From Fidelibacterota bacterium (GTDB lineage: Bacteria > Fidelibacterota > Marinisomatia > Marinisomatales > TCS55): a stretch of DNA of 10,421 nucleotides. Under the pieces are notes generated by a model. That model saw only the letters and a program-made list of their open reading frames with translations. It was not told where the DNA came from and made no database searches. The stretch covers positions 15,449 to 25,869 of the forward strand of contig NZXC01000029.1 of NCBI GenBank assembly GCA_002701785.1, written 5' to 3'. Numbering within the stretch: position 1 is the first letter of the stretch; the number at the start of each line of letters is the position of its first letter. Made by a program: the position numbers and the translations under genes. Positions 1 to 10,392 of the stretch are shown piece after piece.

Positions 1-1
1 A

Positions 2-883
2 ACACCCTCAATGTATAGTTTAATGAACTATGCTGACATTTGCTTGGGTACATGGTACCCAAATGGAGGAATTAGGAGTATTGCAACGGCAATGTATAAA
101 AATTCTTTAGACTTAGGTGTTAAATATGAATTTTCATGCCCTGTTAATAAGATACATTTAACTAATAGTGAAAAAAATGTTAAAGGAATTCAATGTAATG
201 GGGAGGTTATTGAAACCGATATATTACTTGTAAATGGTGATTATCAATATATTGAACAAAATTTATTATCTAATAATGTGAGAAATTATTCAAATAAATA
301 TTGGGACAATCGAGTATTTTCACCAAGTAGTCTAATATTTTATATTGGCCTAAATAAAAAAATACAAAATATTCCACACCATGCATTATTTTTTGATACA
401 TCATTTAATTTACATGCTCAAGAAATATATGATAAACTATGTTGGCCATCAGATCCTTTATTCTATGTTTCCTGTACTTCAAAAACGGATTCAAGTACTG
501 CCCCAAAGAATGGTGAAACTTTATTCGTTTTGATACCAACCGCAAACGGATTGGATGATAATAATAAAATAAGAGAGAAATTTTTTAATATGGTTATTTC
601 TAGGATAGAAAATAATATTGGTGATTCAATAAGAAATAATATTGTTTTTCAAAAATCATATGCACATCGAGACTTTACAAAAGATTTTAATACTATGAAT
701 GGTAATGCGTATGGATTAGCAAATACATTATTTCAAAGTGCATTTATGAAGCCAAAAATGAAAAATAAAAAGATACACAATCTTTATTATACCGGGCAAC
801 TTACTGTTCCTGGTCCAGGTATGCCTCCATCAATAATCTCAGGTAAGATTGCAGCTAGCCTTATTGGTAAAGAACATGACTGA
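2..883 (+). CDS. crtI: Phytoene desaturase CrtI, C-terminal part (5' end outside window)
   Basis: This is the C-terminal part of a CrtI-type, FAD-dependent phytoene desaturase, which converts phytoene to lycopene at the membrane. The frame is open from base 2, before the first ATG at 11, and the residues there (TPSMYSLMNYAD, then LGTWYPNGG) match the interior CrtI stretch that precedes the GTWYPxGG motif. The gene therefore begins upstream and is cut by the window edge, not started at 11. About 293 residues of a roughly 490-residue family are present. The end has the typical CrtI FAD-binding tail (YYTGQLTVPGPGMPPSIISGK split around position 830), followed by a short KEHD end. The stop at 881-883 overlaps the crtB start by 8 bp, which indicates translational coupling. 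The substrate range (phytoene versus a C30 analogue or a diapo form) cannot be read directly. The CrtB and lycopene cyclase neighbours support the C40 pathway. Confidence 0.93.
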   Translation, partial: TPSMYSLMNYADICLGTWYPNGGIRSIATAMYKNSLDLGVKYEFSCPVNKIHLTNSEKNVKGIQCNGEVIETDILLVNGDYQYIEQNLLSNNVRNYSNKYWDNRVFSPSSLIFYIGLNKKIQNIPHHALFFDTSFNLHAQEIYDKLCWPSDPLFYVSCTSKTDSSTAPKNGETLFVLIPTANGLDDNNKIREKFFNMVISRIENNIGDSIRNNIVFQKSYAHRDFTKDFNTMNGNAYGLANTLFQSAFMKPKMKNKKIHNLYYTGQLTVPGPGMPPSIISGKIAASLIGKEHD

Positions 884-1724
884 TCGTGAAATTTATGATG
901 ATCTCGCTAAGACAATTAGCGAAGTAACTACAAAGAGATATAGTACTTCATTCTCTTTAGGAATTAATTTTTTCAGCCGGGATATACGTCAAAGTATTTA
1001 TGGTATTTATGGATTTGTTCGTTTTGCTGATGAAATTGTTGATACATTTTTTGAACAAGATCAAGAAAAAATAATTATTGATTTTGGAAATGAAACACTT
1101 TTATCAATAAAAAGAATGTATAGTTCGAATCCTATTCTTCATTCATTTCAGATGGTAGTAAATAACTACAATATTTCAATAGATTTAATTGAATCATTTC
1201 TAAATAGTATGAAAATGGATATTTACCAAGTTAAACATTCCAAGAATTCCTACAATAATTATATATATGGATCAGCAGAAGTAATTGGTTTAATGTGTAT
1301 TAACGTTTTTTGTAAAGGTGATAATCAAAGAATTAAAGAATTAACATATTCTGCACAAAAACTAGGTTCTGCATTTCAAAAAGTGAATTTTCTTCGTGAT
1401 TTTAAAGATGATTACGAAGGGAAAGGAAGATTATATTTTCCTGAATTGAATAAAAATAATGTTTTAGATAATGTTTCAAAAATCATGATTGAGGAACAAA
1501 TTGAAAATGATTTTGATGAGGGGATTAAAGGAATAAAAAGATTACCAAATAATTCTCGTTTGGGTGTTTACCTCGCTTATCGCTATTTTCGTGTTTTATT
1601 TAATAAATTAAAAAAAACTGATGCGAAAGAGATAACGGAAAATCGACTACGGATAAATAACTTTAGTAAATTATCTTTAATTCCAATAACATATTTAAGA
1701 GAAAAAACTGGACAGTTTATTTAA
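876..1724 (+). CDS. crtB: Phytoene synthase CrtB
   Basis: Phytoene synthase condenses two geranylgeranyl diphosphates to phytoene, the first committed C40 carotenoid step. The 282-residue protein carries both Asp-rich Mg-diphosphate motifs: D52-E53-I-V-D56 within FVRFADEIVD, and the N171-F-L-R174-D175 to D179 motif within QKVNFLRDFKDDYE. It also has the RYSTSFSLG substrate-pocket segment near residue 21 and YGSAEVIGLM near 131. I chose ATG 876 because the N-terminus MTDREIYDDLAK fits family length. An upstream in-frame TTG at 849 would extend deep into crtI. The start lies inside the crtI stop (ATGACTGA, 8-bp overlap) and no good Shine-Dalgarno is visible, so re-initiation from crtI is likely. 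A squalene- or dehydrosqualene-synthase role is less likely given the crtI, crtYcd and crtZ neighbours. Confidence 0.95.
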   Translation: MTDREIYDDLAKTISEVTTKRYSTSFSLGINFFSRDIRQSIYGIYGFVRFADEIVDTFFEQDQEKIIIDFGNETLLSIKRMYSSNPILHSFQMVVNNYNISIDLIESFLNSMKMDIYQVKHSKNSYNNYIYGSAEVIGLMCINVFCKGDNQRIKELTYSAQKLGSAFQKVNFLRDFKDDYEGKGRLYFPELNKNNVLDNVSKIMIEEQIENDFDEGIKGIKRLPNNSRLGVYLAYRYFRVLFNKLKKTDAKEITENRLRINNFSKLSLIPITYLREKTGQFI

Positions 1725-1728
1725 TTAA

Positions 1729-2175
1729 ATGTTAAACGCTATTTTAATAACTATCACATCTTTTATGGCTATGGAATTTATTGCGTGGGCAACTCACAAG
1801 TTTTTAATGCACGGTCCTCTATGGATATTACATGAAGACCATCATGTTTTAACCGGAAAATGGTACCAAAAAAATGATTCCTTCGCGTTAATCTTCGCAA
1901 TACCAAGCATATCATGTTTCTTCGTAGGAAGCTTTTTATCTCCAAAATGGTTAGTGTTTGTTGGATTAGGAATCCTTCTATACGGAATTGCTTATATGCT
2001 AGTTCATGATATATTCATTCACCGCAGAATTAAATTATTTAAAAAACCTAAAAATAGTTATCTAAAAGGGCTCCTTCTTGCACATAGAAAGCATCATGTA
2101 AATTTAGGCAAATATGATTGTGAATATTTTGGAATGTTATTTGTGCCACCAAAATTAATTAAATCAATAAAATAA
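1729..2175 (+). CDS. crtZ: Beta-carotene hydroxylase CrtZ
   Basis: This is a non-haem di-iron membrane hydroxylase of the CrtZ/fatty-acid-hydroxylase type, which adds 3-hydroxyls to beta-ionone rings (beta-carotene to zeaxanthin). The 148-residue protein has all four histidine boxes: H23/H28 in HKFLMH, H35/H38/H39 in HEDHH, H93/H98 in HDIFIH and H119/H122/H123 in HRKHH. Hydrophobic segments lie near residues 2-20, 52-70 and 74-92. The length is normal for bacterial CrtZ. ATG 1729 lies 4 bp after the crtB stop with no evident Shine-Dalgarno. The gene sits between phytoene synthase and lycopene cyclase, as in many Bacteroidota-type clusters. The expected end product of the four crt genes in this operon is zeaxanthin. 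Confidence 0.94.
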   Translation: MLNAILITITSFMAMEFIAWATHKFLMHGPLWILHEDHHVLTGKWYQKNDSFALIFAIPSISCFFVGSFLSPKWLVFVGLGILLYGIAYMLVHDIFIHRRIKLFKKPKNSYLKGLLLAHRKHHVNLGKYDCEYFGMLFVPPKLIKSIK

Positions 2176-2177
2176 AT

Positions 2178-2870
2178 TTGAATACCTACCTGTACTTTTT
2201 ACTAAATACTTCGGCTATTTCTGTACCTCTAATTTTTTCATTTTATCATAAGACTAAGTATTGGGCTACATGGAAAAAACTTCTTCCTGGCTTATTCATC
2301 ATGGATAGTATATATATTATATGGGATATTATATTTACACAATTAGGGGTCTGGGGATTCAATGAAAAGTATATAATTGGATATCATATTTTTAATCTTC
2401 CTATAGAAGAATGGTTGTTTTTTATTTGTATCCCTTATGCTTCTTTGTTTATTCATTACAGTATGTTAAAGATTTTTCCGGATTGGAAATTTTCAGTTTT
2501 TAATACCAAAATAATATTCTATCTAATTATCTTGACCTTATTAATTCTCACTATTATTAATTTTGGCAAACTATATACGACTTGTTGTTTTTTGAGCACA
2601 ATTATTCTTTTATATTGGGTATCAATAAAAAAAATGGAATTATTACAAACTTTTTTTCTATCATACCTTTTTATATTAATCCCGTTTTTCATCATTAATG
2701 GTATTCTGACAGGCACATTTATTATAGATCAGGTTGTTTGGTATAATAATCATCATAATATGGGAATACGACTAGGAACGATACCATTCGAAGATATATT
2801 CTATGGATTCACATTATTACTTGGTATAATAATTATTTCTGATAAAAAATTAATTAGTAAAAAACAATAA
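2178..2870 (+). CDS. crtYcd: Lycopene beta-cyclase, fused CrtYc-CrtYd membrane type
   Basis: This is an integral membrane lycopene cyclase of the CrtYc/CrtYd family, the type that is heterodimeric in some actinobacteria and fused in Bacteroidota, archaea and fungi. It is not related to FAD-dependent CrtY. The 230-residue protein contains two tandem lycopene-cyclase domains. The first has WDIIFTQLGVWGFN (residues 49-62) and the acidic signature P75-I-E77-E78. The second has P203-F-E205-D206 in IPFEDIFYG, preceded by RLGT. At least six hydrophobic helices are apparent. The start codon is probably TTG at 2178, 2 bp after the crtZ stop. No in-frame ATG gives the conserved N-terminal helix. It should make beta-carotene from lycopene for CrtZ. 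The second motif has D in place of the second E, a mild variation. Confidence 0.9.
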   Translation: MNTYLYFLLNTSAISVPLIFSFYHKTKYWATWKKLLPGLFIMDSIYIIWDIIFTQLGVWGFNEKYIIGYHIFNLPIEEWLFFICIPYASLFIHYSMLKIFPDWKFSVFNTKIIFYLIILTLLILTIINFGKLYTTCCFLSTIILLYWVSIKKMELLQTFFLSYLFILIPFFIINGILTGTFIIDQVVWYNNHHNMGIRLGTIPFEDIFYGFTLLLGIIIISDKKLISKKQ

Positions 2871-2871
2871 A

Positions 2872-3846
2872 ATGATAATACGTCATCCTAGTGCTTATCA
2901 TGGTAGAAAGAATAAAAGGCCATTCTTTGAAGGGTGGTATCATAAATTAACAACCATAAGCAAAAAATCGTTAGCAATCATTCCTGGTATTTATCATAGT
3001 GGAATATCAGATAATAAAACAGCATTTATAATGATTTTTGAGGGTAATAATGGTAACGTATTTTTTGAAAGATTTGGAGCTACAGAATTTGAGTGTAGTA
3101 AATCAGAATACAATCTTCAGATTGGTCCAAACTTTTTTTCACTAAATGAAATGAAACTTGATATAAGTACAAATAATCTTCAATTAAAAGGGAAAGTAAA
3201 TACAAAACATCTTAAGCCATGGCCTGTAACTCTATTTGAGCCAGGATGCATGGGTATGTATGCATACATACCAACAATGGAATGTTTTCATGGAATATTA
3301 AGTATGGATCATTCATTAAATGGGAAATTAGAATTAAATGAATCGGTATATGATTTTTCAGATGGTCGCGGTTATATAGAAAAAGATTGGGGCAAAAATT
3401 TTCCAGAAGATTGGATTTGGGCACAAGCAAATCATTTCGAAAATAATCATGCAAGTATTTCAGCTTCACTGGCTACAATTCCATGGAAAAGAATGAAATT
3501 TGCTGGATTCATAGTGGGTTTATATTTTGACAATAAGTTTTATCGGTTCACTACTTATAGAAATACTATTATAAAAGATATATATTTTGATTCAAAAAAA
3601 TTTTACTGGCTATTACAACGAAAAGATTTATCATTACATTTAACAATTGAGAGAGGTAAAAAGGATGGATTGCTTTTTGCCCCAGATAAAAATGATATGA
3701 TACCAAAAGTAATAGAGAATCTTGATGGTAAAATACGTTGTCAATTATATCATAATGATTCAAAAATATTTGATGATTATTCTAATTTATGTGCAACTGA
3801 ATTCATTGGGAATACAAAACAACTAATAAAAATGACATTGAATTAA
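2872..3846 (+). CDS. Tocopherol-cyclase-like protein (TocC family)
   Basis: The 324-residue protein resembles the tocopherol cyclase family (plant VTE1/SXD1 and bacterial homologues). Signatures visible are FFEGWYHKL (residues 18-26), the SLAIIPGIYHSG strand (33-44), GRGYIEKDWGKNFP (165-178) and WIWAQANHF (181-189), corresponding to the family's FEGWY, GYxEKxWG and WxWxQxN blocks. Plant members close the chromanol ring of tocopherols. Most bacterial members have no assigned substrate, and the carotenoid 1,2-hydratase CrtC is regarded as a distant structural relative. No signal peptide is seen. ATG 2872 follows the crtYcd stop by 1 bp, and the stop precedes the SOUL gene by 1 bp, so it is an integral part of the carotenoid operon. 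No tocopherol prenyltransferase or methyltransferase is in the window, so action on a quinol or a carotenoid derivative is inference only. Confidence 0.8.
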   Translation: MIIRHPSAYHGRKNKRPFFEGWYHKLTTISKKSLAIIPGIYHSGISDNKTAFIMIFEGNNGNVFFERFGATEFECSKSEYNLQIGPNFFSLNEMKLDISTNNLQLKGKVNTKHLKPWPVTLFEPGCMGMYAYIPTMECFHGILSMDHSLNGKLELNESVYDFSDGRGYIEKDWGKNFPEDWIWAQANHFENNHASISASLATIPWKRMKFAGFIVGLYFDNKFYRFTTYRNTIIKDIYFDSKKFYWLLQRKDLSLHLTIERGKKDGLLFAPDKNDMIPKVIENLDGKIRCQLYHNDSKIFDDYSNLCATEFIGNTKQLIKMTLN

Positions 3847-3847
3847 A

Positions 3848-4414
3848 TTGAAAATATTATTTACTATATTTATAACAATAGGAACTATTATGGCTTCACA
3901 AATAGAGACACCAGAATACCAACTTTTAGAAAAACATGGACAATTTGAAATACGTTTGTATGAACCCATGATTATTGCCATGACTAATATTAATAGTAAT
4001 TATCGTGAGTCTACTTACACCGGTTTTAGACGCATAGCTAATTATATATTTGGTGGAAATGATCAAAATATAGAAATCGCAATGACAGCCCCAGTAATTT
4101 CAAGTAGCCCTGTAAATAATGATGGTATTTACGATGTGGCATTTGTGATGCCTAAGAAAAATTCATTATCTAACCTACCAGAGCCCAATTATGATAATAT
4201 AATCATAAAAGAAAAGAATCTTGGAAAGATGGCAGTTTTACGTTTTGGAGGATGGGCAACAGAAGAAAAAGTAATCAAGTACCAGAAAAAACTAGAAAAA
4301 ATATTAATAGAAAATAGATATACTATTACCGGAAATTTTATGGTTGCCCAATATAATTCGCCTTGGGCTCTTCCTCCTTTTCGAAGAAATGAGATAATGG
4401 CTCCTATTGAATGA
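3848..4414 (+). CDS. SOUL/HBP-type haem-binding family protein, probably exported
   Basis: This 188-residue protein belongs to the SOUL haem-binding family (PF04832). Recognisable blocks are EYQLLEKHGQFEIRLYEP (residues 23-40), FRRIANYIFGGN (60-71), IEIAMTAPV (75-83) and the C-terminal YNSPWALPPFRRNEIM (169-184), all typical of the family. The first 17 or so residues (MKILFTIFITIGTIMAS) are a hydrophobic signal-like segment with a plausible cleavage site after MAS, suggesting export to the periplasm. Family members bind haem or porphyrins in animals, and some bacterial genes lie beside photoprotection genes. The precise role is unknown. The start is probably TTG 3848, 1 bp after the previous stop, because it gives the complete signal peptide. 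The TGA stop overlaps the pirin ATG (ATGA, 4 bp), implying coupled translation. Tetrapyrrole handling would fit a photo-oxidative stress context, as inference. Confidence 0.85.
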   Translation: MKILFTIFITIGTIMASQIETPEYQLLEKHGQFEIRLYEPMIIAMTNINSNYRESTYTGFRRIANYIFGGNDQNIEIAMTAPVISSSPVNNDGIYDVAFVMPKKNSLSNLPEPNYDNIIIKEKNLGKMAVLRFGGWATEEKVIKYQKKLEKILIENRYTITGNFMVAQYNSPWALPPFRRNEIMAPIE

Positions 4415-5238
4415 AAGTTCGGAAAATAGAGAAAATTATCCAAGGAGTAGAAACTTCAGATGGCGCAGGAGTCAATCTTACACGAATTATTGGAAGTCCA
4501 GATCTAAATATGTTAGATCCATTTTTACTATTAGATGAATTTGGAAGCGAAAATCCAAAAGATTATATATCAGGATTTCCACCGCACCCACATAGAGGAT
4601 TTGAAACCATAACCTACATGATTAATGGCAAATTTCGTCATAAAGACTCAGCCGGTAATGAAGGAATTCTTTCTGATGGTTCTGTTCAATGGATGACTGC
4701 TGGAAGAGGGGTTATACATAGTGAAATGCCTGAACAGACGGATGGGTTAGTGCGAGGATTCCAACTATGGCTTAATCTTCCTAAGGAATTGAAAATGATT
4801 AGGCCAAGCTATTATGATATACCCCAAGATCGAATACCACAAATAGATATTCCTGGGGGGACAATAAAGATTATTGCAGGAAAATATAATAATATTAAAG
4901 GTCCTGGAAATCCTCATACTGGCATGTTTTATCATGATGTAAACTTAAAAAAGAATACAAATTTTAATAAGTCCTTGATTGATGGATGGAATGTTTTCAT
5001 ATATGTCTATGAAGGAAATATTATGATTGATAGTAAAGTTTTAAAAAAAGATTTAGCGGTGATGAATAGTATAGGAGATTTAGAATTACATACAGTAAAT
5101 GATGGTGCAAAATTTATCATAATTGGAGGAAAGCCTCTCAATGAGCCTGTGGCACGAGGAGGACCATTTGTAATGAACACAAAACAAGAAGTCTTACAGG
5201 CATTTTCTGACTATCAAAATGGATTATTAGATCAATAA
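4411..5238 (+). CDS. Pirin family bicupin protein
   Basis: This is a pirin of 275 residues, a bicupin metal-binding protein. The N-terminal cupin has the pirin signature PPHPHRGFETITYM (57-70) and the four expected Fe ligands H59, H61, H103 and E105. RGFQLWLNLP (115-124) and the C-terminal cupin block LNEPVARGGPFVMNT (243-257) are also present. Bacterial pirins include quercetin 2,3-dioxygenases (YhaK/YhhW-like) and redox-responsive proteins of unknown substrate, so no reaction should be assigned. The ATG at 4411 overlaps the SOUL stop by 4 bp. It is the last gene of the carotenoid operon, followed by about 88 bp of non-coding sequence holding the first CGCTCATA repeat. Cytoplasmic location is expected, as there is no signal peptide. 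Confidence 0.92.
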   Translation: MKVRKIEKIIQGVETSDGAGVNLTRIIGSPDLNMLDPFLLLDEFGSENPKDYISGFPPHPHRGFETITYMINGKFRHKDSAGNEGILSDGSVQWMTAGRGVIHSEMPEQTDGLVRGFQLWLNLPKELKMIRPSYYDIPQDRIPQIDIPGGTIKIIAGKYNNIKGPGNPHTGMFYHDVNLKKNTNFNKSLIDGWNVFIYVYEGNIMIDSKVLKKDLAVMNSIGDLELHTVNDGAKFIIIGGKPLNEPVARGGPFVMNTKQEVLQAFSDYQNGLLDQ

Positions 5239-5246
5239 TATAAAAG

Positions 5247-5270
5247 ATTACAATTAATTTATTTTGTAAT
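5247..5270. repeat. Inverted repeat ATTACAA-N10-TTGTAAT downstream of pirin
   Basis: A perfect 7-bp inverted repeat with a 10-base AT-only spacer lies 8 bp after the pirin stop and about 24 bp before the tandem CGCTCATA repeat. It contains no G-C run and is not followed by a clean T tract, so it is a poor intrinsic terminator. It could be part of the promoter region or a second protein-binding site. In DNA this AT-rich, a chance origin is quite possible. Confidence 0.25.
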
Positions 5271-5292
5271 TAATATATATTCTTCTTAATAT

Positions 5293-5309
5293 CGCTCATA
5301 ACGCTCATA
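5293..5309 (+). promoter_or_regulatory. Tandem CGCTCATA operator-like repeat, site A
   Basis: Two perfect CGCTCATA octamers at 5293-5300 and 5302-5309, separated by a single A, form a direct repeat of 9-bp period. The 14-bp core GCTCATAACGCTCA (5294-5307) recurs exactly at two other intergenic places in this window, before the MerR-type regulator gene and before the SRPBCC gene. Site A ends 17 bp before the ATG of the zinc-ribbon gene, immediately upstream of TATAAAGGAG, so bound protein would probably cover promoter or early transcript DNA. I infer it is the binding site of the regulator encoded at 7593-8474. No -35/-10 pair is convincing nearby. Confidence 0.7.
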
Positions 5310-5326
5310 CTATAAAGGAGAATATC

Positions 5327-5575
5327 ATGACTATTTTAGAATCATTAGCACTTGGAAAAAATAAAGAAAATAAAAAAGTAAACAGTAAATCTTCTTATAA
5401 CTCCAAAGAAGGAAAAATAACTGATAAATATTTAATTGTTTGCCCAGCTTGCAACGTTGTATGGGAAAAAGTTCATTGGCGAAATAAAATTTTGATTGAA
5501 TATTACCATGAAATACCTAGGTATGGGAAAAAAAACGAAGTATGTCCTGAATGTTCAGAAAAAGCAGTTTTATAA
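5327..5575 (+). CDS. Small zinc-ribbon protein of unknown function
   Basis: The 82-residue protein has a low-complexity, Lys/Asn/Ser-rich N-terminal third and a C-terminal zinc-ribbon-like region with two CxxC knuckles, C39-P-A-C42 and C73-P-E-C76, about 30 residues apart. Between them is a basic/aromatic stretch (VVWEKVHWRNKIL and YYHEIPRYGKK). I do not recognise a named family. A zinc-binding fold is likely from the paired CPxC motifs, but a nucleic-acid or protein partner cannot be told. It has one of the best ribosome binding sites in the window (AAAGGAG at 5314-5320, 6 bp before ATG 5327) and is the first gene after repeat site A, so it leads the second operon. The stop at 5573-5575 is followed by 29 bp before the VOC gene. 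Confidence 0.75.
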   Translation: MTILESLALGKNKENKKVNSKSSYNSKEGKITDKYLIVCPACNVVWEKVHWRNKILIEYYHEIPRYGKKNEVCPECSEKAVL

Positions 5576-5604
5576 ACCGATTATTAAAGGAAAACATACT
5601 TATT

Positions 5605-5934
5605 ATGAAAAAACTTTCACTAGTAGATCATATAGCAATACAAACAACAAATATCAAATCCACTATAAATTGGTATTTAAGCAATTTTTCCTGCGAAACT
5701 ATTTTCAAAGATAAAACATGGGCATTATTAAAATTTGATAACATAAATATTGCTTTGGTTAATCCAAATGAACATCCTCCACATATTGCATTCAAGGTGA
5801 GTAATATATTTGAATATGGAAAACCATGCACTCATCGTGATGGGATTAACTACATTTATAAAGAAGATGATTTTGGCAATGTAATAGAACTCGTTGAAAA
5901 TAGTTTCAATCTGAAGAAGGAGAAAAGTCAATGA
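5605..5934 (+). CDS. Small VOC/glyoxalase-fold protein
   Basis: The 109-residue protein fits one vicinal-oxygen-chelate module. It has the N-terminal LVDHIAIQTTNIKSTINWYLSNF strand-helix (residues 6 to 28), H60 in HPPHIAFKV, and the C-terminal DDFGNVIELVE (88-98). H9, H60 and E95 are at the positions typical of VOC metal ligands, so a metal-dependent glyoxalase, dioxygenase or resistance-protein-like activity is possible, but the substrate is unknown. It would need to dimerise to complete the usual active site. I chose ATG 5605 because the protein then begins MKKLSLVDHIAI, the usual VOC start, and AAAGGA lies at 5586-5591, though the 13-base spacing is long. The in-frame ATG at 5551 is inside the zinc-ribbon gene. 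The TGA overlaps the next ATG by 4 bp, with AAGGAG at 5917-5922. Confidence 0.8.
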   Translation: MKKLSLVDHIAIQTTNIKSTINWYLSNFSCETIFKDKTWALLKFDNINIALVNPNEHPPHIAFKVSNIFEYGKPCTHRDGINYIYKEDDFGNVIELVENSFNLKKEKSQ

Positions 5935-6128
5935 AATTTAATGATAATAAATCAAAAATATATTTAAAAGAAAAATACTGTATTATATCAACTCCCATCG
6001 AATTTATAGAAAATTCCGTAAAAGTTGCTGGTGACATGATCAACAGAGGGTGGATACCCGTATCAGGAGTTTCATTTGATGATGGAAAAATATTTCATAC
6101 ACTTGTAAAGGAGCCTAATAATGTCTAA
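5931..6128 (+). CDS. DUF1737-like small protein
   Basis: The 65-residue protein has a layout like DUF1737 proteins: an N-terminal strand (YCIISTPIEFIENSVKVAG), a helix ending in the characteristic INRGWIPVSGVSFDDG (38-53), then a final strand IFHTLVKEP. The GWxPxGGV-like segment (GWIPVSGV) is the best recognition point. The function of DUF1737 is not known to me, and the assignment rests on this short motif only. The coding status is well supported: AAGGAG lies 8 bp before ATG 5931, the start overlaps the preceding stop in an ATGA junction, and the stop overlaps the SDR start by 8 bp. Such coupling suggests stoichiometric production with the VOC and SDR proteins. Confidence 0.72.
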   Translation: MKFNDNKSKIYLKEKYCIISTPIEFIENSVKVAGDMINRGWIPVSGVSFDDGKIFHTLVKEPNNV

Positions 6129-6837
6129 TTACATTATAATAGGTGCAAGTGGTGGAATTGGTTCTCAACTGACGGAATATCTTCAGGGTAAAGGTCATTC
6201 AGTCCTCCTTGCACAACACAATAACCCTATTAGCAAACAATCGCTTGTGCAATCCTTAACCCATATTTCGTCAGTTGAAGCTACGGATTTTGACTCTGTT
6301 GCCAATTTATTTAATTACGGAGTTGAAAAATTAGGAAACATTCATGGCGTGGTGAATCTTGCTGGAAGCATCATATTAAAACCTGCTCATAGGACTTCAA
6401 ATAATGAATTTGAGCATACCATAGATCAAAACTTAAAGACTTCTTTTAGCGTAGTACGTTCAGCCGGTCTAATATTAGAAAATTCATCTGTTGTCCTTAT
6501 ATCTAGTGCAGCTGCCTCAGTGGGATTAAATAATCACGAAGCAATTGCAGCTGCAAAAGCTGGAATTGAAGGCTTAGCTCGTTCTGCTGCGGCTACATAT
6601 TCCAAGAAAAATCTACGATTTAATGTAATTGCTCCTAGTTTAATTGACACACCGCTTGCCGCTGGAATTACTTCAAATGCACTAGCCTTAAAAGCTAGTA
6701 AAAAAATGCATCCTCTTGGAAGAATTGGGACTCCTCGGGATATAATTAATATGATTGGGTTACTTCTAGATGAAGAAAATAACTGGATAACTGGCAATGT
6801 GTTTCACATTGATGGTGGAATATCAAAAATAAAATAA
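6121..6837 (+). CDS. SDR-fold protein lacking the catalytic tyrosine
   Basis: The 238-residue protein has a classical short-chain dehydrogenase fold. The dinucleotide motif GASGGIG is at residues 8-14, NLAG at 79-82 (the NNAG equivalent), the active-site serine S129 in ISSAAAS, K146 in AAAKAG, and the tail NVFHIDGG at 226-233. Using FabG spacing (Ser, then Tyr 13 later, then Lys 4 later), the catalytic Tyr position falls on I142 in NHEAIAAAK, so the YxxxK motif reads IxxxK. Standard SDR hydride-transfer chemistry is therefore doubtful, although cofactor binding should remain. The substrate is unknown. It has an excellent AAAGGAG at 6107-6113 before ATG 6121 and overlaps the DUF1737-like stop by 8 bp. 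It may act as an NAD(P)-binding sensor, or use altered chemistry; that is inference. Confidence 0.88.
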   Translation: MSNYIIIGASGGIGSQLTEYLQGKGHSVLLAQHNNPISKQSLVQSLTHISSVEATDFDSVANLFNYGVEKLGNIHGVVNLAGSIILKPAHRTSNNEFEHTIDQNLKTSFSVVRSAGLILENSSVVLISSAAASVGLNNHEAIAAAKAGIEGLARSAAATYSKKNLRFNVIAPSLIDTPLAAGITSNALALKASKKMHPLGRIGTPRDIINMIGLLLDEENNWITGNVFHIDGGISKIK

Positions 6838-6855
6838 AATTGTAAAGGAAAAAAT

Positions 6856-7428
6856 ATGTTAATGAAAATTATACTTACAGTACCATTTTTTATGGTTTTT
6901 CTATGGGCCTATAATAATTCAAGTATTAACGCAGAGGAAAACACTACATCAATCACTTCGTTTTATGATCAAAGAATCAAATTATTAAATAATAAAGAAA
7001 TAAGTTTGAGTCAGTTTCGTGGTAAAAAGCTTTTAATAGTAAATGTTGCCTCTAACTGTGGATATACAAATCAGTACAAAGACCTTCAGATGCTTTATGA
7101 TATCCATGGAGATAAAGTTGAAATATTGGGATTCCCATGTAATGATTTTGGCTCACAAGAACCTGGAATTGCCTCAGAAATTGAAAACTTTTGTAGAATA
7201 AATTATGGAGTCACTTTTACGATCGCTGAAAAGATTCAGATTAAAGGAGAAAATATCCACCCTGTATATAAATGGTTGACTGATAAAACAGCAAATGGAT
7301 GGAATTCATCAAAGCCTTCTTGGAATTTCTGTAAATACCTGATTGATGAAAAAGGTAATCTTATGAAATATTACAGAAGTGGAGTAAATCCGATGAGCGA
7401 TGAACTAATTGCTGATATAATGAACTAG
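6856..7428 (+). CDS. Exported cysteine glutathione peroxidase (thioredoxin-type likely)
   Basis: This is a glutathione-peroxidase-family thiol peroxidase, which reduces hydrogen or lipid peroxides. The 190-residue protein starts with a hydrophobic signal-like segment (residues 3-19, cleavage plausibly near INA-EE at 26), so it probably acts outside the cytoplasm. The core shows NVASNCGYT with peroxidatic C68 (not selenocysteine), LGFPCNDFGSQEPG with Q101, and SWNF with W156 and N157, completing the catalytic tetrad. C113 in NFCRINYGVTF or C95 could be the resolving cysteine, and many bacterial members use thioredoxin. AAAGGA at 6844-6849 is 6 bp before ATG 6856; M3 is an alternative start. 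It follows the SDR gene by 18 bp and ends the second operon. Removal of peroxides fits a photo-oxidative stress set. Confidence 0.92.
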   Translation: MLMKIILTVPFFMVFLWAYNNSSINAEENTTSITSFYDQRIKLLNNKEISLSQFRGKKLLIVNVASNCGYTNQYKDLQMLYDIHGDKVEILGFPCNDFGSQEPGIASEIENFCRINYGVTFTIAEKIQIKGENIHPVYKWLTDKTANGWNSSKPSWNFCKYLIDEKGNLMKYYRSGVNPMSDELIADIMN

Positions 7429-7534
7429 ATATGAAAATGCTGTTCTCAATGTATGATAAGAAAAGTAATGAACAGAAAATAAATTATAATAATATCAACC
7501 TACAATTTAACTAATTATTTACTTATATAGAATA

Positions 7535-7551
7535 TGCTCATAACGCTCAAC
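7535..7551 (+). promoter_or_regulatory. Tandem CGCTCATA operator-like repeat, site B (regulator gene leader)
   Basis: TGCTCATA (7535-7542), A, then CGCTCAAC (7544-7551) is a slightly degenerate copy of the tandem repeat. The 14-bp core GCTCATAACGCTCA is identical to the other two sites and lies at 7536-7549. It is in the 164-bp gap before the MerR-type gene, with 43 bp between core and GTG start. This nearly equals the 42 bp at site C, suggesting the same promoter geometry. It would give autoregulation if the encoded regulator binds it. The rest of the gap holds AT-rich sequence with no clear terminator, promoter or gene. Confidence 0.7.
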
Positions 7552-7592
7552 TATTGTTTCATTTTTATTGCTATTTTTTGTAACCTTTCTAT

Positions 7593-8474
7593 GTGAGATA
7601 TCTTAATTCAAAAGAAGTTGCTAATATTTTAGGAATTAATATCTCCACATTAAAACGTTGGACAGAAAATGGAACTCTTGAATGCAAAAAAACTGTTGGG
7701 GGACATAGAAAGTTCACTATGCAACATATTCGCAATTATTACAAAAAAAATAGACAATCAGGTAAAAATCTTGGAGCAGTTTTGGATACTGTTGAACACA
7801 AGGAAATATATAATTTTATTAAAAAGGATGAATATGATAATCTTGCTCACAGACTTGCAAAAACAAGTATTTCATCCGATGATCTTTCTGTTAATACTAT
7901 AATTCGTAGTGCATATATGTCGGGATATAATGTGTCTGATATTTTTGATAAAATAATTGATCCGGCATCTGATATTGTAGAAAAACAGTTGCAAAAAAAA
8001 TCAATTTCACATGTTGAAGAATATATTTCAAGGAAACTGATCACACGTGGAGTCGAATCTTTAAGTCAAGATAAGCCAAATGGATCTTTTAATGGTAAGT
8101 CAGCATTATGCATTAATTTTGAAGATGATTTACCTGACTTAGGTATAGCAATGTCAGAAGTAGTTTTAAGAGATTATGGATATAATGTGTTTAATACAGG
8201 ATCTCATGCAGAACTTGGTAGTTTAAAAAGTATTCTAAAAAAAGAAAGAATAGATCTAGTGATTTTCTATTTATGTGATCGTCAATGCTGTCGCGCCACA
8301 GCATTAAATAATTTAAAAAAGACTGGAAATCAAATAAGTGAAATAATCATGATTGCTCAAAACACGGGTTTGCAAATCATTTTTGGTGGAGAAGGTTTAA
8401 AACACCTTAAAAAAATACCTAAAGATATAGTAAAATCATTTAAAAGCTACAACGAACTTTCCTCATTAGTCTAA
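7593..8474 (+). CDS. CarH/LitR-like MerR-family regulator with degenerate cobalamin-binding site
   Basis: The 293-residue protein has a MerR-type winged helix at the N-terminus (MRYLNSKEVANILGINISTLKRW, residues 1 to 23, with wing TVGGHRKF at 34-41), a helical bundle (about 75-160) and a C-terminal Rossmann-like domain (about 168-285), the layout of the light-sensing B12 regulators CarH and LitR. The key cobalamin motif DxHxxG reads D179-L-P181-D-L-G184, so the lower-ligand His is Pro. The bundle EEH motif reads E142-E143-Y144, and the expected Trp shortly before it is not seen. The GG of the nucleotide-tail pocket (265-266) persists. The start is GTG 7593; the ATG at 7591 runs straight into TGA. 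There is no clear ribosome binding site. It sits beside the photolyase gene and between repeat sites, so a light or oxidative-stress regulator is likely; ligand unknown. Confidence 0.88.
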   Translation: MRYLNSKEVANILGINISTLKRWTENGTLECKKTVGGHRKFTMQHIRNYYKKNRQSGKNLGAVLDTVEHKEIYNFIKKDEYDNLAHRLAKTSISSDDLSVNTIIRSAYMSGYNVSDIFDKIIDPASDIVEKQLQKKSISHVEEYISRKLITRGVESLSQDKPNGSFNGKSALCINFEDDLPDLGIAMSEVVLRDYGYNVFNTGSHAELGSLKSILKKERIDLVIFYLCDRQCCRATALNNLKKTGNQISEIIMIAQNTGLQIIFGGEGLKHLKKIPKDIVKSFKSYNELSSLV

Positions 8475-8502
8475 TTTAATACCTAAGATAAATTTATTAT
8501 TT

Positions 8503-9837
8503 ATGTCAACCCTTGCAAGTCGTACCCTTGAATTAAGGAAAGGATTAACAAAAGGAAATTCTGTCCTCTATTGGATGGTAAGAGATAAAAGGGCTAAAGA
8601 TAATTGGGCTCTTATTGCAGCACAAAAACATGCAATCAAACATAAAATACCATTAATCGTCTGCTTCCAATATATTGGAAAATTTTCGAATGCAAATATT
8701 CGTCAGTATAAATTTCTATTCAATGGTCTCAAAGAAACATTACAAATATTACAATCATATAATATTCCATTATTTATAGTTCAGGGAAAGGCGGAAATAA
8801 AGATTCCTGAATTAATAAATAAATTTAATGTTGGTGCAGTTTTCACTGATTTTTCTCCATTAAATATTTATAAAAGAAGGTTAAATAAAGTGCTTTTAAA
8901 AACTAGCATTCCCTTTTATCAAGTAGATGCGCATAATATAATTCCTGTTTGGAAGGCTAGTGATAAACAAGAATATGCAGCATATACAATTCGACCAAAA
9001 ATATTATCTAAATTAAATAATTTCTTAATCGAATATCCAACGCTCGGTAAGCATCCATTCGCAATAAAAGATCAACCAGAAAAAATAGAATTTGATAATA
9101 TATATAATGGGCTAAAAATTGATTATACAATTAAGGAATTAGATTGGATTATTCCTGGAGAGTCAGCAGCTATAGACACTTTACAAACATTTATTGATAA
9201 TAAACTTGTTGATTATGATGAGAAAAGAAATAATCCAAATTTTCAACAATTATCAAATCTTAGCCCATATCTTCATTTTGGTCAAATATCAGCGCAACGT
9301 ATTGCACTTGAATTAGAACAATTTGATAATGCAGATAGTTTCTTGGAACAATGTACAATTAGAAGAGAATTATCAGATAATTATTGTTATTACAATGAGC
9401 AATATGATACTTATGACGGTTTCCCTGAATGGGCAAAACAATCATTAAACAAACATCGAAATGATTCTAGAGAATATATATATAATAAAGATGAATTTGA
9501 AAATTCCGCAACTCATGATAAGCTATGGAATGCTGCTCAAAATGAAATGAAAACTAAGGGAAAAATGCATAGCTATATGCGTATGTATTGGGCAAAAAAA
9601 ATTTTAGAGTGGAGCAATAACCCCGAATCAGCACTACAGATTGCAATAGATTTAAATGACAAATATTCTTTAGATGGTCGTGACCCAAATGGCTATACAG
9701 GAATAGCCTGGAGTATCGGAGGCGTTCATGATCGACCATGGTTTGAACGCCCAGTTTTCGGTAAAATTCGATATATGAATTTTAATGGGTGCAAAAGGAA
9801 GTTTAAAATAGAAAATTATATACATATAAATCAATAA
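8503..9837 (+). CDS. phr: Class II CPD photolyase
   Basis: Deoxyribodipyrimidine photolyase repairs UV-induced cyclobutane pyrimidine dimers using FAD and light. The 444-residue protein is the class II type. It has the start-proximal LYWMVRDKRAKDNWAL (22-37), LSPYLHFGQISAQR (253-266), RRELSDNYCYYN (287-298), THDKLWNAAQNEM (337-349), GKMHSYMRMYWAKKILEW (353-370) and the DGRDPNGYTGIAWSIGGVHD block (391-410) with RPVFGKIRYM after it. The length is normal and all catalytic blocks are intact. ATG 8503 is 28 bp after the regulator stop without an obvious terminator, so the two genes are probably co-transcribed from the site B promoter. The TAA at 9835-9837 directly abuts repeat site C. Class I photolyase or cryptochrome is excluded by the motif set. 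Confidence 0.96.
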   Translation: MSTLASRTLELRKGLTKGNSVLYWMVRDKRAKDNWALIAAQKHAIKHKIPLIVCFQYIGKFSNANIRQYKFLFNGLKETLQILQSYNIPLFIVQGKAEIKIPELINKFNVGAVFTDFSPLNIYKRRLNKVLLKTSIPFYQVDAHNIIPVWKASDKQEYAAYTIRPKILSKLNNFLIEYPTLGKHPFAIKDQPEKIEFDNIYNGLKIDYTIKELDWIIPGESAAIDTLQTFIDNKLVDYDEKRNNPNFQQLSNLSPYLHFGQISAQRIALELEQFDNADSFLEQCTIRRELSDNYCYYNEQYDTYDGFPEWAKQSLNKHRNDSREYIYNKDEFENSATHDKLWNAAQNEMKTKGKMHSYMRMYWAKKILEWSNNPESALQIAIDLNDKYSLDGRDPNGYTGIAWSIGGVHDRPWFERPVFGKIRYMNFNGCKRKFKIENYIHINQ

Positions 9838-9854
9838 CGCTCATAACGCTCATT
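9838..9854 (+). promoter_or_regulatory. Tandem CGCTCATA operator-like repeat, site C
   Basis: CGCTCATA (9838-9845), A, then CGCTCATT (9847-9854) is the third tandem repeat, with the invariant 14-bp core at 9839-9852. It starts on the base after the photolyase stop codon. There are 42 bp from the core to the SRPBCC ATG at 9895, like site B. A TTGACT at 9859-9864 follows, with TAGATT 18 bp further on; this would place the transcript start almost at the ATG, so it is only a weak promoter candidate. The position implies that the SRPBCC gene has its own promoter and is not simply a continuation of the photolyase transcript. Confidence 0.7.
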
Positions 9855-9894
9855 TTTATTGACTTATTACTTCCTATATTATTAGATTATTATT

Positions 9895-10392
9895 ATGAAA
9901 TTGTATACTTTAGATTCAATTCAGCTTATAGAAAAACCTATTGAAGATGTCTTTAATTTTTTTTCTAAACCTGAAAATTTGTCTATAATTACACCTCAAA
10001 AATTAGGATTCAAACTTCTAACCCCGACGCCAATCAAAATGGGAACTGGTTGTATAATTGATTATAAGATTTATTTAATAAAAATTCCAATTCATTGGAG
10101 AACATTAATAACAGACTTTAACCCTCCTCATATGTTCGTAGATCAACAAATTAAAGGTCCATATACTATGTGGCATCATACGCATACTTTTCAAGAAGTT
10201 GAAGATGGTGTAGAGATTAGAGATAAGGTGGTTTATTCTATACCTATAGGTATTTTCGGTCGAATATTAAATTATTTTTGGATAAAAAAAGATTTAGAAA
10301 ATATCTTCAAGCATCGCAAAAAAGTAATTGATAAACTTTTTGAAAATAACGATTACAAATCATATACTTCCGATTCAATAATGGAGAAATAA
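9895..10392 (+). CDS. SRPBCC (START-like) ligand-binding family protein
   Basis: The 165-residue protein matches the SRPBCC/COG4276 type of START-like lipid or hydrophobic-ligand-binding fold. It has IEKPIEDVFNFFSKPENLSIITP (12 to 34), the MGTGCIIDYKI strand (49-59), IHWRTLITDFNPPHMFVDQQIKGPYTMWHHTHTF spread over 66-99 with FVDxQxxGPYxxWxHxHxF, and a C-terminal helix (FGRILNYFWIKKDLENIF). This family is often encoded next to, or fused with, TIGR01777 epimerases, and here such a gene begins 2 bp downstream. No biochemical role is established to my knowledge. ATG 9895 gives the conserved N-terminus; upstream sequence is AT-rich without a clear Shine-Dalgarno. It is the first gene after repeat site C. 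The last 15 residues are probably disordered. Confidence 0.87.
   Translation: MKLYTLDSIQLIEKPIEDVFNFFSKPENLSIITPQKLGFKLLTPTPIKMGTGCIIDYKIYLIKIPIHWRTLITDFNPPHMFVDQQIKGPYTMWHHTHTFQEVEDGVEIRDKVVYSIPIGIFGRILNYFWIKKDLENIFKHRKKVIDKLFENNDYKSYTSDSIMEK

Follow-up and report, generated by a model that had tools for sequence, protein, structure and literature searches.

Background

The CarH proteins (class I LitR) of Thermus, Bacillus and Myxococcus recognize 11-bp repeats, nnnnTnnACAn (PMC9304148), and act as repressors that are released on light (PMC8156234). In CarA of Myxococcus xanthus, which likewise uses 11-bp repeats, the axial-His motif is retained, as is the EH of the Wx9EH signature (PMC9304148). 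Class II LitR proteins, such as PplR1 and PmlR2 of Pseudomonas, consist of the four-helix part only; they are repressors, bind TGTACA-N12-TGTACA and are switched through a LOV partner (PMC9758184). BldC, a development regulator of Streptomyces, is a MerR-like protein made of a 68-residue DNA-binding domain only, which binds 9-bp direct repeats, AATTXXXX(C) (PMC5859096). The stretch analyzed here (the window: 10,421 nucleotides of contig NZXC01000029.1, from a Fidelibacterota bacterium) contains three copies of another 9-bp direct repeat, located in front of a zinc-ribbon gene, a MerR-type regulator gene (merR) and a SRPBCC-like gene; all positions refer to the window.

We consider it probable that the CarH-like MerR protein encoded at 7593-8474 uses the three copies as its operators; it would repress the three promoters and be relieved, under photo-oxidative conditions, by a signal other than B12. 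Relatives carrying the regulator belong to Candidatus Neomarinimicrobiota (Marinimicrobia), a phylum whose surface-ocean members acquired photolyases and proteorhodopsin (PMC6143742); the Wx9EH form of the regulator is found in other phyla (PMC8156234).

The repeat in the window and in its genome

The 14-mer GCTCATAACGCTCA occurs exactly at 5294-5307, 7536-7549 and 9839-9852, always on the + strand and between called open reading frames (ORFs). The first-pass annotation had reported three identical copies, all in gene leaders and none within genes: a window search allowing up to three mismatches confirms this, as no fourth copy appears. At this tolerance 0.39 copies are expected and three were reached by only 1 of 200 shuffles, in agreement with the earlier judgement that chance recurrence is unlikely. 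The flanks of the copies share no longer sequence. A scan for scattered copies, proposed at the same time, found exact GCTCATANCGCTCA only at the three window sites in the whole of its own assembly (1,823,205 bases, 57 contigs, 92.83% complete). When up to two mismatches are allowed the matches become 19, that is the 3 exact ones and 16 with one or two mismatches, all 16 inside ORFs; since the reversed pattern gives 7 matches at the same tolerance (0 at zero mismatches), the imperfect matches look like background.

The element had been described as a tandem CGCTCATA-N-CGCTCATA, which holds only in part: the full pattern is exact at 5293 alone (+ strand), with one mismatch at the third site and three at the merR site. 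The best register is formed by two AWAWCGCTC units, with a 9-bp period, followed by an A (coordinates in Table 1). Self-identity at shift 9 is 9, 7 and 10 of 10 bases at the three sites, and does not exceed 4 of 10 at the other shifts from 6 to 13; at the merR site a T replaces the C at 7535. The period was rightly said to differ from the CarH repeats and from TGTACA-type boxes: an exact 11-bp TnnACA pair is absent from the three leaders, where the best scores are no better than those of shuffles, and TGTACA-N12-TGTACA is absent both from the leaders and from the whole window.

Distribution in the phylum and target genes

The exact motif is present in 15 of the 40 genomes of the family and, over the phylum set of 245 genomes, at 75 sites in 41 genomes, where the reversed control gives 1 site. 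Four of the 75 (the second G011 site and those of G019, G051 and G020) are not included in the table of 71 sites used for placement: 49 of the 71 are intergenic, 7 lie inside a called ORF yet 35-43 bp before a start, and 15 are neither.

The repeat recurs in relatives before merR, zinc-ribbon and SRPBCC genes, and in some of them before photolyase and proteorhodopsin genes. In the fetched loci, which were picked for holding the motif or merR, so that these fractions are not genome-wide, it is found at up to two mismatches within 130 bp upstream of 32 of 59 merR, 8 of 10 zinc-ribbon and 6 of 16 SRPBCC genes (the latter at 37-43 bp), but only of 2 of 27 SDR and 2 of 22 VOC-like genes. In the same loci it never directly precedes crtI (0/12), crtB (0/9), photolyases of the window type (0/15) or glutathione peroxidase (0/12); regulation would thus extend to the photolyase and peroxidase encoded in the window only through their operons. 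That the crtI operon is controlled too, as had been suggested, is not borne out: besides the 12 crtI copies of the relatives, the 15.5 kb upstream on the same contig contain no site at up to three mismatches, and crtI was dropped as a target.

Other targets, identified by Pfam unless stated, are photolyase or photolyase FAD-domain genes (G015, G118, G136), proteorhodopsin (G008; by sequence look, G012 and G052), DUF2878 (G041; by look, G123 and G125), DUF2237 (G122), DoxX_2 (G136), Rieske proteins (G012, G136; by look, G052) and, in divergent orientation, DUF6370 (G136). Judging from such assignments, many of the targets in relatives would fit light stress or ultraviolet repair; a PhoX-like gene (G140) and a TonB-type receptor gene (G228) fall outside this theme, and may be chance.

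Association with the regulator gene

At up to two mismatches the motif is present in 31 of 61 merR leaders, 19 of the cysteine type and 12 of the Wx9EH type (see below). One of the 62 merR copies was dropped, having too little leader, and in G001 the merR fragment was of insufficient length for gene calling. In the same leaders 200 shuffled motifs gave a mean of 0.015 and a maximum of 1, the reversed motif 0 and the reverse complement 2. When genomes are counted (merR at E <= 1e-20), 26 feature both motif and merR, 15 the motif alone, 36 merR alone and 168 neither (Fisher p 1.1e-8, kinship ignored). That the copies reflect chance or a dispersed mobile repeat is therefore a practically negligible explanation: a few exact matches elsewhere do fall inside ORFs, but the window shuffles, the reversed control in the phylum and the shuffled motifs in the merR leaders all contradict it, as do the lack of longer shared flanks and the conserved placement.

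The half-site changes along with the recognition helix. Regulators whose helix ends in KRW (n = 49) have GCTC in 32 cases, GTGC in 1 and neither in 16, while those ending in RRW (n = 13) have GTGC in 12 and GCTC in 1 (Fisher 4.2e-9 on the called ones, kinship ignored). The GTGC sites retain the 9-bp period, for example as AAAACGTGC units. In G168 and G170 (loci L148, L186, L204, L159) a Wx9EH-type regulator coexists with a second one that has an RRW helix, and either has the half-site that matches it; these second copies are partial in the assembly, and their cysteine region is outside view. The motif is thus likely, on sequence grounds, to be the operator that the CarH-like MerR protein would bind, and the idea of a local regulon gains strength: copies are kept in the promoters of relatives and tied to the MerR-type gene.

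Several observations weigh against this assignment. The motif occurs without merR, at E <= 1e-20, in 15 of 41 genomes, and 36 of 62 merR genomes lack the exact motif; 16 of the 49 KRW-helix regulators, the f30 group among them, have neither half-site; 22 of the 71 sites lie inside called ORFs, 7 of these close before a start; and the fractions from the fetched loci, chosen as mentioned above, are not genome-wide, those of the merR leaders included. Convincing sites without a detected merR are found in G008 (4 intergenic sites), G015 (3), G122, G125 and G137. Such genomes would be expected if another transcription factor bound the repeat, coregulating merR with the other genes, which we hold to be distinctly unlikely: the motif is found in merR leaders of many families, including those of distant Wx9EH-type relatives (exact in G168, G184 and G186), and it follows the merR recognition helix. 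The missing genes may be due to incomplete assemblies (76-88%); in G008 merR may well be off the contig, because the contig begins inside a photolyase-like gene which, in G046 and G050, is a neighbor of merR.

A separate occurrence of a related sequence was noticed in some IMG/VR phage contigs, where two to four copies of CGCTCA-N3-CGCTCA, several of them at 33-bp intervals, lie beside a terminase small subunit-like gene (Table 1). The array is possibly a packaging site. The reading of the same half-site by a phage protein, whose helix VNVSTIRRW is similar, was considered and dropped: other phages have TRATIHNW or SSVTIHKW by the same motif, so that the phage case gives no support to the operator assignment.

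Promoter geometry

The position of the motif relative to promoters was evaluated on 56 operator-like sites, 15 of the 71 being left out as not intergenic and without a start within 60 bp. A TTG is found 8 bp downstream of the motif in 19 of the 56, and no other offset between 0 and 29 has more than 4; for CTTG the figures are 15 of 56 and at most 1. This fixed spacing sets the motif relative to a -35 box. Upstream of the motif, A at -5 (49/56), A at -3 (49/56) and C at -1 (39/56) are kept, completing the first AWAWCGCTC unit. Among the sites with the 8-bp TTG spacing, the promoters of G120 and G121 read TTGACA-N16-TATAAT.

Two further features of the leaders were observed. Where a site lies 37-45 bp upstream of a start, a -10-like box is often seen 4-10 bases ahead of the start codon, as at 9883-9895 and 7579-7593 (no control); this suggests leaderless transcripts, possibly also for the SRPBCC gene, whose -10 lies six bases before the ATG. 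In family f16 the cysteine-type leaders (L172, L173, L169, L176) contain two pairs of 9-bp repeats that are oppositely oriented, as for divergent promoters.

An RNA element in the 5' leader is hard to reconcile with this geometry; we find this explanation scarcely credible and have rejected it. The motif is indeed always on the coding strand of the three window genes; yet at the 19 sites with the -35-like TTG the spacing puts it outside the transcript, and some merR and SRPBCC starts lie only 6-10 bases behind a -10-like box.

At operator 1 the arrangement is different: here, and in the orthologous sites of G001 and G002, the ATG follows the motif after only 18-19 bp, indicating a promoter upstream of the motif, with the motif on the start region. 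The promoter assigned to it in Table 1 is the best upstream pair in the window according to the scoring script; inspection by eye shows it in G001 and G002 too, although the script favored other pairs in these. The pair following operator 2 is visible in G002 too, and is not the top pair of the script.

These data bear on the sign of the regulation. A repressor is proposed, since the location of operator 1 over the start region is best explained by repression, and both CarH and class II LitR repress. It must be set against this that repression is argued from operator 1 and from CarH, while the sites upstream of the -35 would suit an activator too. The same regulator, recruiting or positioning RNA polymerase just upstream of the -35, would account for the motif ending 8 bp before TTG in 19 of 56 sites, a typical activator position, and for the promoters of G120 and G121. 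We regard activation as rather unlikely, in view of the short gap in the zinc-ribbon operons of the window, G001 and G002, and of the repressor role of CarH (PMC8156234) and class II LitR (PMC9758184).

The regulator protein

The regulator scores above the cut-off for Pfam HTH_17 and MerR_1, and below it for the B12-binding domain; with the NCBIfam CarH equivalog model (NF052513) it reaches 20.2 bits, the cut-off being 400. Its DNA-binding domain matches BldC in PDB (6ama, 6amk) and scores 35.7 bits (E 5.7e-9) with NCBIfam HTH_BldC, not reaching the cut-off of 77; the recognition helix carries R22/W23. The AlphaFold2 model (pLDDT, predicted local distance difference test, 83.4) retrieves by Foldseek CarH and other B12 domains, with 8jbs as best match, then 5c8d-f, and also 8jbt. 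The modeled C-terminal domain is CarH-like in fold, with a helix bundle and a Rossmann-like domain.

Overlooked at first pass was that the regulator is devoid of the CarH contacts to B12 and contains a cysteine insertion: Trp133 is replaced by Leu, the axial His181 by Pro, and the insertion features C228-x3-C232-C233. The aligned regulators (52 rows) comprise 43 of this cysteine type and 9 of the Wx9EH type. In the former Leu takes the place of the adenosyl-capping Trp in 42 of 43 and Pro that of the axial His in 43 of 43; the LCxxQCC insertion (C228, C232, C233) is present in all 43, versus none of the 9 Wx9EH-type rows, and 42 of the 43 retain C173. Among the 274 homologues listed, 272 have CxxQCC and one CxxKCC, one being a fragment; neither Wx9EH nor [DE]xHxx[GP] is found in any of these 274. 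An unrooted tree of 59 rows separates the Wx9EH rows from the others at a branch with support 100/99. Because Wx9EH is the regulator form known from other phyla, the change is taken to run from Wx9EH to the cysteine type: the sub-family of the window regulator appears to have lost the B12 contacts and gained the LCxxQCC insertion.

An ordinary B12-dependent CarH with a diverged sequence is therefore very improbable, even if the predicted fold matches CarH and other B12 domains, the Wx9EH-type relatives share the operator, and adenosylcobalamin could be available: of 40 genomes chosen among the 62 merR-bearing ones, 35 encode a PduO-type adenosyltransferase, the own genome being one of them (CobA/BtuR type, 2 of 40). 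The substitutions of Trp and axial His, the three further cysteines in all 43 rows, and the lack of both B12 signatures among the listed homologues speak against it. As the PduO-type enzyme is still encoded, the supply of adenosylcobalamin is probably intact, and its loss was rejected as the simple reason for the loss of the B12 site. The regulator is most likely, as far as its sequence tells, a B12-independent repressor with a cysteine-based signal.

Organization of the window

The features of the window are reported in Table 1. The photolyase is probably cotranscribed with merR, the gap between them being 28 bp. Positions 1-5238, with no motif before their genes, hold a carotenoid cluster (crtI, crtB, a crtZ-like gene and a lycopene cyclase domain), followed by tocopherol-cyclase-like, SOUL-like and pirin-like genes; the SOUL and pirin names are readings only.

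Table 1. Predicted operators, promoters and genes of the window, and positions of the phage arrays on their own contigs
Feature	Position	Strand	Description
Operator 1	5289..5307	+	9-bp direct units ATATCGCTC ATAACGCTC, then A; overlaps -10/start region of the zinc-ribbon operon promoter
Putative promoter at operator 1	5264..5292	+	TTGTAA-N17-TAATAT; -35 at 5264-5269, -10 at 5287-5292; consensus match only
Putative operon behind operator 1	5327..7428	+	five ORFs; operon suggested by spacing
Zinc-ribbon protein	5327-5575	+	ORF
VOC-like protein	about 5605-5934	+	ORF; no Pfam/NCBIfam match, name is a reading only
65-aa protein	5931-6128	+	ORF
SDR	6121-6837	+	Pfam
Glutathione peroxidase	6856-7428	+	Pfam GSHPx
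Operator 2, putative autoregulatory site	7531..7549	+	AATATGCTC ATAACGCTC, then A; 43 bp before the merR GTG
Putative promoter after operator 2	7557..7584	+	TTTCAT-N16-TGTAAC, 8 nt before the start codon; by eye, weak
CarH-like MerR regulator	7593..8474	+	293 aa, GTG start; Pfam HTH_17/MerR_1
Class II-type DNA photolyase	8503..9837	+	NCBIfam TIGR00591 phr2 above cut-off; Pfam DNA_photolyase
Operator 3	9834..9852	+	ATAACGCTC ATAACGCTC, then A; 42 bp before the SRPBCC ATG
Putative promoter after operator 3	9859..9888	+	TTGACT-N18-TAGATT; best downstream pair there; consensus match only
SRPBCC-like protein	9895..10392	+	ORF; no Pfam/NCBIfam match, name is a reading
NAD-epimerase-like ORF	starts behind 10392, at window end	+	name by eye from relatives
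Phage CGCTCA-N3-CGCTCA copies	L231 1904-1984; L232 4933-5013; L239 1082-1162; L242 849-929; others

Proposed mechanism

The operator would be AWAWCGCTC ATAWCGCTC A, occupied by one winged-helix domain per 9-bp unit, head to tail. As in BldC, the AT-rich part would be read in the minor groove and CGCTC by helix 2 (Arg22), the 9-bp pitch being set by the head-to-tail packing of the winged helices. The bound regulator would cover the -10/start region at operator 1, and at operators 2 and 3 would lie immediately ahead of the -35. Under photo-oxidative conditions merR itself would be derepressed, together with the photolyase, SDR, glutathione peroxidase and SRPBCC genes. The trigger of this release would be light-generated oxidants, a metal or a cluster, with the CX3CC insertion as a possible sensor of the non-B12 signal.

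More tentatively, and with less than even confidence, marine Neomarinimicrobiota may be seen as having a new class of photoprotection switch that descends from CarH: a cofactor or redox center bound by cysteines (LCxxQCC, perhaps with Cys173) would have taken the place of the B12 chromophore, the BldC-like 9-bp operator being kept from B12-type ancestors; both regulator types, with their own half-sites, could share one cell. The proposed operator and regulator would provide an uncultured, abundant ocean phylum with a regulon that responds to light or oxidation, cis-element included, and that can be put to the test; they point to a sub-family that kept the regulon and swapped the B12 site for conserved cysteines.

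Comparison with known systems

In a literature search conducted largely outside subscription journals, neither a description of the cysteine-type sub-family nor a paper covering both Marinimicrobia and CarH was found. The 9-bp repeat was also looked for outside the phylum, where one outside-looking locus (L092, 27% identity) was available and none was seen by eye in 200 bp.

With CarH and class I LitR the predicted system shares the MerR-type DNA-binding domain with a CarH-like C-terminal fold, a direct-repeat operator over a sigma-70-type promoter, and photoprotective targets. In contrast to the proteins from Thermus, Bacillus megaterium and Myxococcus, however, the units are of 9 bp and of another sequence, Wx9EH and the axial His are missing, and the targets do not include crt genes. 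CarA, like the window regulator, is a CarH relative working without B12; no cysteine insertion is mentioned for it in the accessible text of PMC9304148. Class II LitR proteins are also B12-independent LitR relatives, and control photolyase and neighboring light-induced genes (PMC9758184), but the modeled window regulator has, in addition, the following alpha/beta domain.

The predicted AWAWCGCTC operator resembles that of BldC in format: 9-bp direct repeats, an AT-rich stretch with a C four bases on, and a directional site. Arg30 of the RW pair of BldC aligns with Arg22 (numbering deduced from a 71-residue chain, for a 68-residue protein). Unlike BldC, the regulator has 293 aa, with a large C-terminal sensor-like domain after the DNA-binding domain. 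The distinct operator architecture proposed at first pass therefore stands with respect to CarH and LitR, and is to be qualified with respect to BldC, which already uses 9-bp direct repeats (PMC5859096): as far as the searches show, no CarH-like protein had been associated with such a repeat before, but for MerR-like domains it is not new. The joining of a CarH-type regulator to an operator of the kind known from BldC bears on whether spacing is set by the DNA-binding domains rather than by the B12 tetramer.

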